Positions 2,933 through 7,121 of a stretch of DNA of 37,713 nucleotides are shown piece by piece. Position numbers and translations under genes: made by a program. The notes under the pieces were generated by a model. The model ran no database searches, was not told where the DNA came from, and worked only from the letters and a program-made list of their open reading frames with translations. The DNA comes from Candidatus Gastranaerophilales bacterium (GTDB lineage Bacteria > Cyanobacteriota > Vampirovibrionia > Gastranaerophilales > Gastranaerophilaceae). The stretch covers positions 1 through 37,713 of the forward strand of contig CALUTK010000015.1 of assembly GCA_944323675.1 (NCBI GenBank), in the 5' to 3' direction. Position 1 is the stretch's first letter. Every line of letters starts with the position of its first letter.

Positions 2933-4300
2933 TTAATTATTTAAACTGTGAATCGGAGCTGGGATGCGTCCGCCGCGATTTACAAAGCCTGCAGATGAAA
3001 GCGTGTTCACCGGCATAATAGGAGCTTCACCCAGAAGTCCGCCGTAAGAGACTTTGTCGCCGACAGTTTTTCCGTAAGCCGGAATTACCCTGACAGCCGT
3101 TGTCTTTTTATTTATCATCCCGATTGCCATTTCATCAGCTATCATTCCCGCAATTGTACTTGAAGGTGTATCTCCCGGAATAGCTATCATATCAAGGCCG
3201 ACAGAACATACACACGTCATTGCTTCAAGTTTGTCAAATGTAAGATATCCTTTTGTTGCAGCCTCTATCATTCCGGCATCTTCTGATACCGGAATAAATG
3301 CACCGGAAAGTCCTCCGACATGTGAACTTGCCATTATGCCGCCTTTTTTTACAGCGTCATTCAGCATTGCAAGTGCGGCGGTTGTTCCGTGTGCGCCGGC
3401 GTGTTCAAGCCCCATTGCCTGAAAGATTCCGGCTACGCTGTCGCCTTCCGCCGGCGTCGGCGCAAGTGACAGGTCTATAATACCAAACGGAATATCCAGT
3501 TTTTTTGCTAATTTACGTCCTACAAGCTCTCCTGTTGACGTAATTTTATAAGCTATCTGTTTAATCTTATTTGCAAGTTCCGATAAGTCCGCGTCTTTTG
3601 GCATAGATGCTATTGCGGCTCTCACAACCCCTGGCCCTGAAACTCCAACATTCAGCGCGCATTCCGGTTCGCCTATACCGCAAAAAGCCCCAGCCATAAA
3701 CGGGTTGTCGCTTGCAGAGTTACAGAAACATACTAATTTTGCAGCACCTATCCCGTCGCGGTCTTTAGTGAGTTCTGCCGATTTTTTTATTATTTCAGCC
3801 ATTTTTAAAACAGCATCCATATTAATTCCGGCTTTTGATGAGGCAAGGTTTACTGATGAACAGAGTCTTTCCGTTTGTGCTAAAGCTTCAGGAATGCTTT
3901 CTATTAGGAGTTTGTCGCCTTTTGTGCAGCCCTTTTCCACAAGCGCGGAAAATCCGCCGATAAAATTCACCCCGACTTCTTCTGCCGCTTTATCAAGAGT
4001 TTTTGCGATTTTTACGTAATCCGGATTCTTGCAGGCTTCTCCCACAAGCGAAATCGGGGTTACTGCTATCCTTTTATTTATAATCGGGATGGAATAGTCA
4101 TTTTCCAGTTCGTCTGCGTATTCAACAAGATTTTTCGCGTAATGTCTAATCTTGTTATAAATATTATCGCAAACTACATTGACATCGCTATCCATACAAT
4201 CTCTCAAACTCAAGGCCAGCGTTACCGTCCTGATATCGAGGTTGTACAGTTTTATCATATTAATTGTTTCAAGTATAAAATTTTCGTTAATAACCGCCAA
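2933..4300 (-). CDS. UPF0210 / DUF711 (PFL-like fold) protein
   Basis: A 455-residue protein of the UPF0210 family, which has a fold related to pyruvate formate-lyase but no established reaction. It is full length, from the typical N-terminal block (about residues 10-45, with [11 protein letters not shown]) to the conserved end [20 protein letters not shown]. No glycyl-radical loop was seen. In many bacteria this gene sits beside a small ACT-domain gene (UPF0237). Here that partner is absent, and its start overlaps the end of the ZorB-like gene by 14 bp, so it is likely translated by coupling as the last gene of the stator operon. Downstream there is only an A7T8 tract (2914-2928), not a clear hairpin. 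Confidence 0.9.
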
Positions 4301-4991
4301 AGTTTAACCCGAACATTCTTGATATGTTCTTTGCCTTTACTCTTAATTTTAATTCTACACGACGGCTTTTTGTTAAATCTTCTTTTCCGTCAGCCGTTAA
4401 GACGGGTTCTGAAAAGCTTTTTCCTTCTACAGTAAGCATTTTTCTTAATGTGGCATCATACTGTCTGTTATATGCTGTTTTAAACATATATTCTTCGACA
4501 GCATGTGCGCGCATTAAACTGAGTTCCATATTTTTTACAAACTGTTCATTCGGTGATTTAAGCCCTTTAAACATCTGTGAATCAGTGTGTCCCTGCACAA
4601 CTACGTTTACAACATTTTCATATAATGCAGGGTTGGAAAAAATAGTATTTATATAAATCGGAACAAATTTATCAAGGTAACGTTTCCCTTTTTCTGTCAG
4701 GGTATAGCTTCCGACATCAAAAAGCTGAAGATCAGAAATTTTTACGTTACCTGTAAGTTTATCAACTTCTGCGTCAATATCGGCCTCTTTAAGCCGTTCA
4801 GCCATCTGTTCGGAGGCTTTAATCTGGTTCTGCTGCAGTTCTACCGTTTCCTGAGTAAAACCTGTCATGGCAAGTACGAACAGGGTCATAAAGATGATTG
4901 CCAAACCTAACATAAGGTCGGACATCGTCGTCCAGAATACGTTATTATCGTTTTCTTCTGTATGTTTACTTTTACCTGCCAGAATTCCCAA
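4287..4991 (-). CDS. ZorB/MotB-like stator subunit with OmpA-type domain
   Basis: A 234-residue inner-membrane protein with one transmembrane helix (about 20-42) and a periplasmic OmpA/MotB-like peptidoglycan-binding domain (GHTDS at 134-138, and the late [15 protein letters not shown] helix). The helix begins [16 protein letters not shown], so an aspartate (D25) sits where MotB and ZorB proteins have the ion-carrying Asp. The WxxxSDLM context is closer to ZorB than to flagellar MotB, judged from memory of these families. The start codon is TTG, chosen because GGAGG lies six bases upstream. It follows the ZorA-like gene by 12 bp and overlaps the UPF0210 gene. No flagellar or Zorya effector gene is nearby. 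Confidence 0.8.
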
Positions 4992-5003
4992 GTTTTTCCT
5001 CCG

Positions 5004-5909
5004 TTAGAATAAATCGTCAACAGCGTCTGACTTAGTTGCCTTTGCCATTTCTTTCATTTGTTTGTTCATCAGGTTCATACCGAAAATAAGGTTTTCCAGA
5101 TACGGAACAAGGTTGCCTGCAATACCGGAATTCAGCGCAACCTTAAAATGGTTAGGCAATTCGGTTATAAGATGCTGCAGGGCATTGTTTTGAATTTTTG
5201 TTTCTTTCAGAAGTTCCAGCAAGAATTTTTCGGACGAAATGTTATCAAATAATTTTCCAATGACATCAATAACTCTTGCAAAAGGTCTGTGACACCAGAT
5301 TGCATAGGCGAATTTTTCATAGATGATGAATAACAGTGAAGCACACAATGCGAATACTGATACCAGCGCAGCGATCTGCATGGAACTCATCAGGTTTGCA
5401 ACGGATGCGATAGTTGCTTCCTGGCTTGAAAAGTCAATTTTACCGAACGCGATTGCAATGTTCAAGAACGTAAACAACGGGCCTAAACCTGTAAGGATTG
5501 TCGGCCAGGAAACCATCAGCTTGTTATTAAATTTCCCTGTGACTAATGATTCTTCATTAAAAAAGTATGCAGGATCAACCGTTGTTTGAATATTCTGAAT
5601 GGTAGAAGAAACTTCTTTGTAAGTCAGAGTATTATTTTGGCCTTTCAACGCTACGGATTCAGAAAATACTAAAGTATTCTTGAATTCCATCCAAATAGCG
5701 GATACATAAGGATTTAAAGACATCCACTCATCAATTTCTTTAAACCGGTAGTTCAAGTCACTCTTTTTAAAGTTACTTGTAAACATATAAAGTATATTAA
5801 GGTTCTTTTTTACTCTGTTGTACATAATTGTACAATATGTCATTGCTGAAATGAACGCAAAGATTACAACCAGAATAGGCGGGTCGGTTAATATATGTCC
5901 TAAATTCAT
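5004..5909 (-). CDS. ZorA/MotA/TolQ-like proton-channel stator subunit
   Basis: A 301-residue membrane protein with three hydrophobic helices: about 12-30, 132-155 and 176-197. Helix two carries WPTILTGLGPLFTF (135-148), matching the P-x-x-x-(T/L)GLG-x-x-x-T-F signature of the MotA/TolQ/ExbB superfamily. The cytoplasmic loop (31-130) and the tail (about 200-301) are helical. The tail is far shorter than in described ZorA proteins. It starts at ATG with GGAG eight bases upstream and is first in an operon with the ZorB-like and UPF0210 genes. It most likely forms an ion-driven complex with the next gene; what it drives is unknown. It is not ExbB/TolQ proper, because its partner has a peptidoglycan-binding domain. 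Confidence 0.78.
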   Translation of the reverse strand: MNLGHILTDPPILVVIFAFISAMTYCTIMYNRVKKNLNILYMFTSNFKKSDLNYRFKEIDEWMSLNPYVSAIWMEFKNTLVFSESVALKGQNNTLTYKEVSSTIQNIQTTVDPAYFFNEESLVTGKFNNKLMVSWPTILTGLGPLFTFLNIAIAFGKIDFSSQEATIASVANLMSSMQIAALVSVFALCASLLFIIYEKFAYAIWCHRPFARVIDVIGKLFDNISSEKFLLELLKETKIQNNALQHLITELPNHFKVALNSGIAGNLVPYLENLIFGMNLMNKQMKEMAKATKSDAVDDLF

Positions 5910-5962: not shown

Positions 5963-6218
5963 AAGTTTTACATAATGAAAACAAAATTCTCATACGTTTG
6001 GAGGATATTTTAGTTTTTTTATTAAAGAAAAATTTTTCTCTTCCGAATAAAAAAACATAATTAAATACAAGAGCATAGTTCTTGTATTACCTCCCCAAGT
6101 CTGGTAGCCGTTCTTATCTAAGACGGCTTTTTTTTATCTCTGCGCTTCTGCGCGGCAGAATTGATTATACGAAAAGCGGCGACGCTAGGTTAAATGATAA
6201 AATTTCCTGATTATAGCG
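5963..6218. other. Intergenic stretch between stator operon and fucosyltransferase
   Basis: There is no convincing protein gene. The right half holds the candidate small RNA (6064-6135). The left half is AT-rich, with a lone GGAGG on the plus strand (near 6000) and no start codon after it. A short GCGC-TTCT-GCGC hairpin lies near 6142-6155 and has no T-run. Confidence 0.5.
6064..6135 (+). ncRNA. Candidate two-hairpin small RNA with anti-Shine-Dalgarno linker
   Basis: Seen in the sequence: a 9-bp perfect hairpin (AATACAAGA 6064-6072, TCTTGTATT 6080-6088); a linker with ACCTCCCC (6089-6096); and a terminator hairpin (AGCCGT, bulged T, CTT, paired with AAGACGGCT, 6106-6128) ending in eight T. 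No protein gene precedes the terminator on this strand, so it most likely ends a short RNA. A possible promoter is TTTTTC (6033-6038), 17 bp, CATAAT (6056-6061), giving a start near 6067. The exposed CCUCCCC could pair with GGAGG ribosome sites. The layout, two hairpins around a CU-rich single strand, is that of cyanobacterial Yfr1, but homology is not shown. Confidence 0.5.
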
Positions 6219-7121
6219 TTAAAAACGATACATAATTTTTTCACGATTTACAATATCTTTTTCAAAAGGTTCATTTCCGCTTTCAATTATGCTGTATAAA
6301 AATTCTTCAAGCTGTTTCTCTCGTTCTTCAGGATTAAACAGTAACGGTGGCTGACTCAGCATTTCAAGATAGAGTTGTTCATTGTTATCAAGTAATTTTA
6401 TATATTCAATAACAGAGTCTAATGAATCAAAGTCATTACAATTTATAAAAGCCTTAGGGTTAAATTCTTTGCAGACAAGCGGATTACCCCAGTAAATTGG
6501 AATTGATGAAGCCATAAATGCATCTGTTAATTTTTCTGTGGTGTAACCATTCCCAATTGTATTTTCAAAAGCAATTGTAAATTTATAATTGCTTAGAAAT
6601 TTAATTTTATCTTCATCAAACCACCAGTTTTTTCTGGGTGGAATCGGGTTATCCATATTATTTAAAACAGTTGATGGGCAGTCTATATGTTTATATTGAG
6701 CAAGATCTCTGCAGAATTGCTGGCGCAAAAGCGCTCCTGACCCAAGAGTATAATTCCGGTATACAAAGTTGCAGAATTTACGATTTTCGGGAGAATTTAA
6801 ATGCTTTATTCTTAGTTTTTCGTTGTAATAATACAATGGAAAACGAAAATGCCTGTTATCAAAAGTTATATAATTCGGACTTATTGCGTAGTCACATTTG
6901 TTAAAATTCGGGACAAGATTTTCTCCAGTGACAAATATTTTTGTACAACTAGTGTAGGATGTGTTTTTATTCCCGAAACAAGAATAAAAAATAAAGTCAG
7001 GTTTATCAGTGTTGATTTCAAGATGATATTTCTTTTTCAGAATTTTATACAATAAACTTTGTTCAATTATAAAACCACGCCAAAAATCACAGAAATTTAT
7101 TTTTATAACTTTATCTTTCAT
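6219..7121 (-). CDS. Alpha-1,3-fucosyltransferase (GT10 family)
   Basis: A 300-residue glycosyltransferase of CAZy family GT10, which moves fucose from GDP-fucose onto GlcNAc or glucose of surface glycans. The diagnostic C-terminal block is clear: FTIAFENT near residue 192, then GYTTEKLTDAF and SIPIYWGNP, the GDP-fucose site. The N-terminal acceptor half is divergent, as usual. There is no transmembrane segment, so it is probably cytosolic or peripheral. It stands alone and no GDP-fucose synthesis genes are in view. The upstream region has a consensus -35 (TTGACA) and a -10 only seven bases before the ATG with no Shine-Dalgarno, suggesting a leaderless message. Low GC and isolation hint at acquisition by transfer. 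Confidence 0.85.
   Translation of the reverse strand: MKDKVIKINFCDFWRGFIIEQSLLYKILKKKYHLEINTDKPDFIFYSCFGNKNTSYTSCTKIFVTGENLVPNFNKCDYAISPNYITFDNRHFRFPLYYYNEKLRIKHLNSPENRKFCNFVYRNYTLGSGALLRQQFCRDLAQYKHIDCPSTVLNNMDNPIPPRKNWWFDEDKIKFLSNYKFTIAFENTIGNGYTTEKLTDAFMASSIPIYWGNPLVCKEFNPKAFINCNDFDSLDSVIEYIKLLDNNEQLYLEMLSQPPLLFNPEEREKQLEEFLYSIIESGNEPFEKDIVNREKIMYRF

Follow-up and report, generated by a model that had tools for sequence, protein, structure and literature searches.

A predicted small RNA of the Gastranaerophilales with a conserved anti-Shine-Dalgarno linker and a sigma-28 type promoter

The Gastranaerophilales (Melainabacteria) are a non-photosynthetic sister lineage of the Cyanobacteria, common in the gut and known almost solely from metagenomes, and we found no described small RNA from this order in the open-access literature. 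Described RNAs from other bacteria provide the points of comparison. The cyanobacterial Yfr1 (RF01116) is defined by the ultraconserved unpaired undecamer ACUCCUCACAC (PMC2190773), which lies in an architecture of a 5' stem-loop, an unpaired linker of 16–20 nt and a terminator stem-loop, 54–69 nt in all, and in Nostoc Yfr1 acts on cell-wall genes (PMC6974561). The alphaproteobacterial anti-Shine-Dalgarno sRNAs comprise alpha-r8 (MmgR/suhB, RF00519, and SisA-D) and alpha-r14, to which NfeR1 with its CCUCCUCCC motifs belongs. NfeR1, which displays CCUCCUCCC, silences ntrB, with occlusion of the ribosome binding site being supported (PMC10746234), and MmgR is Hfq-associated (PMC12559287). A third group is tied to the regulon of the flagellar sigma factor: the sigma-28-dependent sRNAs UhpU, MotR, FliX and FlgO of E. 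coli are UTR-derived and act on flagella synthesis (PMC10578931), as do the flagellar sRNAs of Campylobacter (PMC11187230).

The locus described here lies in a stretch of 37,713 nt (the window), corresponding to contig C15 in a draft genome of 1.8 Mb; close relatives of the ZorA-like gene in the window are from Candidatus Gastranaerophilales. The locus is intergenic and on the + strand, between two genes that are both on the − strand. Its parts and neighbors are as follows.

5004–5909, − strand: ZorA-like gene, its start facing the sRNA from the left
5987–6008, no strand assigned: imperfect dyad element TTCTCATACGTTTGGAGGATAT, just 5' of the promoter, centered at about −60 from the predicted start
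6023–6027, + strand: −35 element TAAAG of sigma-28 (FliA) type, with matches in the upstream regions of relatives
6043–6050, + strand: −10 element CCGAATAA of the sigma-28 type promoter, 15 nt past TAAAG
6057–6135, + strand: predicted small RNA gene of about 79 nt, matching covariance model R1 at 86.3 bits, its start deduced from the promoter
6064–6088, + strand: 5' hairpin of 11 bp, kept in structure and variable in sequence
6089–6105, + strand: single-stranded, CU-rich linker ACCUCCCCAAGUCUGGU of 17 nt, the predicted seed
6090–6096, + strand: CCTCCCC (CCUCCCC in the RNA), within the linker
6106–6135, + strand: intrinsic terminator, a hairpin AGCCGU...ACGGCU and a run of eight T
6106–6128, + strand: hairpin of the terminator
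6128–6135, + strand: run of eight T
6219–7121, − strand: fucosyltransferase-like gene, its end facing the sRNA from the right

The segment 6033–6135 has a folding energy of −22.2 kcal/mol, as compared with −11.7 ± 2.7 kcal/mol in dinucleotide shuffles (z −3.9; 0/200). An earlier note on this DNA, made from the letters alone, had described a hairpin, an open linker and a terminator hairpin with eight T, and all of these are found where it placed them. Of the extent it gave, 6033–6135, the end stands and the start does not, as 6033 falls within the promoter. The transcript most likely starts near 6057, and therefore the RNA would be about 79 nt in length. The conserved unit also exceeds that description, since it includes the sigma-28 type promoter (6023–6050) and the upstream element (5987–6008).

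A DNA search of 59 relatives returned close matches throughout the genus of the window; beyond the genus, including in other families, similarity extends from the start of the linker to the end of the terminator. In an alignment of 30 loci from 30 genomes, CCUCCCCAAGUCU is unchanged in every sequence and the terminator core AGCCG is invariant, while the sequence of the 5' hairpin varies; each of the 30, folded singly, forms a hairpin, a mostly open linker and a terminator. The linker reads CCUCC(UCC)CCAAGUCU in 30/30 genomes, taking the form UUACCUCCCC in the subgroup of the window. The family consensus, and commonest linker, is CCUCCUCCCCAAGUCURGU, and CCUCCCC(A/G)AGUCU is almost unvarying across the family. 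RNAalifold reports double changes at 9/15 pairs. When 49 distinct sequences are aligned with the model, 94.9% of structural cells pair and 90 cells are changed on both sides, as compared with 23.5 ± 3.8 in shuffles (0/500); aligning with the model biases the result toward it, but the differences from shuffled and slid controls are large. In the 5' stem, double changes occur at 8/8 pairs with 92% of cells paired. In the slid controls, with the partner strand shifted by one to three columns, pairing falls to 40–58%. A strongly conserved unpaired seed with a covarying flanking stem, as looked for in an anti-Shine-Dalgarno sRNA, is therefore present. The earlier note had suggested a covariance-model comparison, a contrary outcome being a linker that drifts and hairpins that disappear among close relatives; the linker is conserved, the 5' stem covaries, and no such drift and loss are seen.

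Covariance model R1 was then applied to 382 genomes of the class, of which 276 have matches. These are found in 266/276 genomes of the family of the window, nearly always as a single copy, and in 10/10 genomes of the order that belong to other families, with one to three copies; genomes of the class outside the order have none (0/96). In one distant genome the gene is present three times in tandem, at a spacing of ∼362 bp (L218 1491–2260, G050:C16), with the linker variant CCUCCCCGAGUCU and with a separate TAAAG...CCGA sequence and terminator for each copy.

The locus could in principle be a cis element, either the terminator or 3' UTR of a neighboring gene or the leader of a downstream one, and the intrinsic terminator at its end would suit such a role. 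However, no + strand gene reads into the sRNA here, and it has a conserved promoter of its own. The ZorA-like gene is found beside the copies in the genus of the window only, and the sRNA is kept elsewhere, so that it is conserved independently of this neighbor. The tandem copies in one genome, each with its own promoter-like sequence, also argue against a cis element, which we consider highly improbable. On the basis of the sequence data, it is close to certain that 6057–6135 (+) is a genuine small RNA gene.

In E. coli, the sigma-28 (FliA) promoter has the architecture TAAAGTTT-N11-GCCGATAA. Among 52 distinct regions upstream of the sRNA, 33 contain TAAAG-N14,17-CG[AT], as compared with 0.9 (maximum 5) in dinucleotide shuffles, and the matches are tightly placed, 59–73 nt upstream of the seed. 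In many of the remaining regions the promoter comes close to this pattern, as in AAAAGTTT-N11-GCCGATAA, and in a few it is degenerate. The genome of the window encodes FliA (G000:C1:42627-43289; 247 bits against a cut-off of 189.6), which is also above the cut-off in 53/59 relatives. A promoter of the TAAAG-N15-CCGATAA type is thus conserved with the sRNA and FliA is encoded, as would be expected of a member of the sigma-28 regulon, and we consider it very likely that the sRNA has a sigma-28 (FliA) promoter, TAAAG-N15-CCGA. In the same genome, TAAAG-N15,16-CCGATA occurs 11 times, as compared with 0 for the reversed control, with several of the 11 matches located 30–60 nt upstream of the start codons of uncharacterized proteins. 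The genes right behind sigma-28 type promoters in this genome, which lacks a flagellin match (L121, L123, L126 and L127 of G000), encode several proteins of unknown family and one that weakly matches EF-hand, and possibly form a non-flagellar FliA regulon. The dyad at 5987–6008 is in the same place in most relatives and is a perfect palindrome in L016 (ATCTCCTCCAAATGGAGGAGAT) and L131 (ATATCCTCTATTTAGAGGATAT). It may be an activator site; in E. coli, CRP is reported to activate a sigma-28 promoter from about −49.5 (PMC2859248).

The earlier note had seen in this locus a functional analog of Yfr1 with an exposed anti-Shine-Dalgarno linker, and this is backed by the architecture, the covariation, the conservation of the linker and the conserved complementary ribosome binding site described below. 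The sRNA has the three-part architecture of Yfr1, at an inferred ∼79 nt being somewhat longer, and the two RNAs are alike in their two hairpins, CU-rich single-stranded linker, intrinsic terminator and lineage-wide conservation, as well as in predicted pairing at ribosome binding sites and in targets of envelope type (for Yfr1, in Nostoc). They differ in the linker, CCUCCUCCCCAAGUCURGU rather than ACUCCUCACAC, in the sigma-28 type promoter of the sRNA, in its lack of an Rfam Yfr1 match, and in being found in sister classes. The further suggestion of that note, perhaps a distant homolog of Yfr1, found no support. The undecamer is absent from the linker in 30/30 aligned genomes, and in 50 genomes the sRNA is never matched by RF01116 (cut-off 38 bits), a model to which Synechococcus elongatus responds and which exceeds its cut-off in 1/14 control genomes. 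Elsewhere in the 50 genomes only subthreshold matches to RF01116 occur, the best of which (G104) has no Yfr1 motif on reading. True homology, by descent from an ancestor shared with the Cyanobacteria and with divergence of the linker, would account for the shared architecture and similar length in a sister lineage, for the CUCCUC common to the linker and ACUCCUCACAC, and for cell-wall genes also being targets of Nostoc Yfr1 (PMC6974561). With the defining undecamer missing, RF01116 silent at the sRNA, and no family member in the 96 genomes elsewhere in the class, where intermediates would be expected, we regard homology as improbable.

A scan with Rfam of the window and 14 relatives found no family over threshold at the sRNA locus. 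Membership in MmgR/suhB (RF00519) was considered and rejected, as the window scores 22.6 bits and the best locus (L022) 25.5 bits against a cut-off of 41, with no match at the other tested loci. The alphaproteobacterial sRNAs carry nearly the same CCUCCUCCC seed in unpaired regions, whereas the sRNA described here belongs to another phylum, has a different promoter and regulation, and extends the seed by AAGUCU. The sRNA is thus a new family, one that works like Yfr1 and the alphaproteobacterial anti-Shine-Dalgarno RNAs and is a member of neither. If true, the parallel with Yfr1, alike in shape and target type and different in seed and promoter, would represent a clean case of convergence between sister classes.

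In an unbiased target screen, 59 genomes were searched for TTGGGGAGG ahead of ATG with the sRNA gene itself excluded. The screen returned one orthologous gene in 8 genomes, in which the site is kept and the spacer to the ATG varies; among the screened sites, this gene alone recurs widely. In the genome of the window it is G000:C5:13308-14510, and its product (P0001, 401 aa) carries a single hydrophobic stretch in its N-terminal part, together with a Beta-lactamase2 domain (PF13354, E 1e-58) that has SIIK, SDN and KTG motifs. P0001 scores 108 bits against the class A beta-lactamase cut-off of 200 bits, so that it is equally likely to act like a cell-wall peptidase or to hydrolyze beta-lactams. 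The leader of the hydrolase mRNA pairs with the linker at −19.1 kcal/mol and ranks first of 319 gene starts (background −8.2 ± 3.2 kcal/mol), which were called by a simple script, a few of them wrongly, in the window and ∼370 kb of sampled stretches of its own genome. These starts sample roughly one quarter of the genome, so there may be further strong targets. The sequence UUGG(G)(G)AGG occurs in just 2/319 gene starts. For 17/23 hydrolase orthologs, at most 2 of the 319 background genes pair as strongly, and the remaining 6 rank between 6 and 34, with weaker pairing in several more distant genera; these orthologs are related by descent, and the Shine-Dalgarno-like sequence that each of them has is in itself enough to pair with CCUCC. 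Among the 17, the sites are not identical (GAUUGGGGAGG, AGAUUUGGAGGA and AGAUUUUGGGAGG, for example). As a control, 30 ZorA-like orthologs average −9.4, with 0/30 in the top 3. In many of the predicted duplexes, AAGUCU of the linker pairs with GAUU or AGAUU, beyond what a Shine-Dalgarno sequence needs, which would also account for the conservation of the linker 3' of CCUCCCC. One cofold check gave a gain of 18.2 kcal/mol; the other duplex energies are calculated without full accessibility.

GGGGAGG-ATG as a class is not enriched in the genome of the window (10 compared with 8 for the reversed control), so the linker does not pair with strong Shine-Dalgarno sites in general. The targets proposed in the earlier note, the TM2, ZorB-like and RHH genes, are unremarkable, at ranks 73, 28 and 105 of the 319 starts. 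A conserved complementary ribosome binding site, as looked for in the target of an anti-Shine-Dalgarno sRNA, is thus found in the predicted target, most strongly within the genus. The mRNA of P0001, a membrane-anchored hydrolase of the class A beta-lactamase-like serine type, is the best-supported predicted target of the sRNA and a likely one. In two close species of the genus (L193 and L208), a 74-aa protein (MDYSQEKTVYPMTNGEISSS...) has CTTTTGGGGAGGAG before its start codon and is a possible second target.

The sRNA might instead mainly bind a protein, or partner another RNA as Yfr2 does Yfr1, with the anti-Shine-Dalgarno complementarity being secondary. The invariant CCUCCCCAAGUCURGUAGCCG exceeds a minimal seed and enters the terminator stem, which could reflect protein binding. 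Against this, there is a complementary ribosome binding site that is conserved and uses AAGUCU-AGAUU pairing beyond CCUCC, and no Yfr2-like partner was noticed, though not by a systematic search; we judge such a primary role unlikely. The reading we favor, and hold to be probable, is a stand-alone, trans-acting sRNA gene of about 79 nt, started by FliA, whose linker would block ribosome binding sites, that of the hydrolase mRNA foremost, probably without classical Hfq. Sigma-28 (FliA) RNA polymerase would initiate near 6057 and the intrinsic terminator would end the transcript at about 6135, with the two hairpins protecting the RNA and keeping the CU-rich linker open. The linker would pair with (A)GAUU(U)GG(G)(G)AGG ahead of the start codon in a small set of mRNAs, covering the Shine-Dalgarno sequence, extending upstream through AAGUCU-AGAUU and keeping the ribosome off. 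With the hydrolase mRNA (G000:C5:13308-14510) as the foremost target, the RNA would link the activity of FliA to enzymes of the envelope, probably ones acting on peptidoglycan. In this scheme the gene, its structure, its conservation, the promoter sequence and the complementarity are computed, and we infer transcription, dependence on FliA and repression. No classical Hfq was detected in any of 21 genomes with a model that also misses the divergent cyanobacterial Hfq (Synechococcus control), and the sRNA probably works without it. The Gastranaerophilales thereby gain a well-defined sRNA family, together with a likely sigma factor and a testable target.

Functional flagella have been reported as lost in part of the Gastranaerophilales (PMC4040986). 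Flagellin (PF00669) was not found in 13/13 genomes of the genus of the window, nor in 29/59 relatives, and the sRNA is present in 27 of these 29; of the other two, G015 has FliA and no match to the RNA, and G058 is outside the order and has neither. Therefore, the RNA and its promoter persist without the usual FliA product. As flagellin was the sole flagellar gene examined, residual flagellar genes may remain. The E. coli and Campylobacter sRNAs, likewise linked to the regulon of the flagellar sigma factor, act on flagella in flagellated bacteria, whereas the sRNA described here stands alone, is kept without flagellin and has a predicted envelope hydrolase target. We tentatively suggest, at somewhat less than even confidence, that an order-wide sRNA that was once part of the flagellar sigma-28 regulon persisted after loss of the flagellum, and that the flagellin-less gut Gastranaerophilales retained FliA and an Hfq-independent anti-Shine-Dalgarno RNA that was rewired to envelope enzymes and converged on Yfr1 in form and function. 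This raises the question, open to testing, of why FliA is retained in animal-gut lineages without flagellin, which may be explained by a few non-flagellar genes under FliA, the sRNA being one of them.

Finally, the neighboring genes at 4287–5909 (−) form a ZorA/ZorB-like stator pair, with PADLOC E values of 5e-23 and 3e-51 and matches below the NCBIfam cut-offs. The ZorA of the window is short, at 301 aa, and shows ∼70% identity across many Gastranaerophilales genomes; it looks like a housekeeping gene rather than part of a Zorya defense system.
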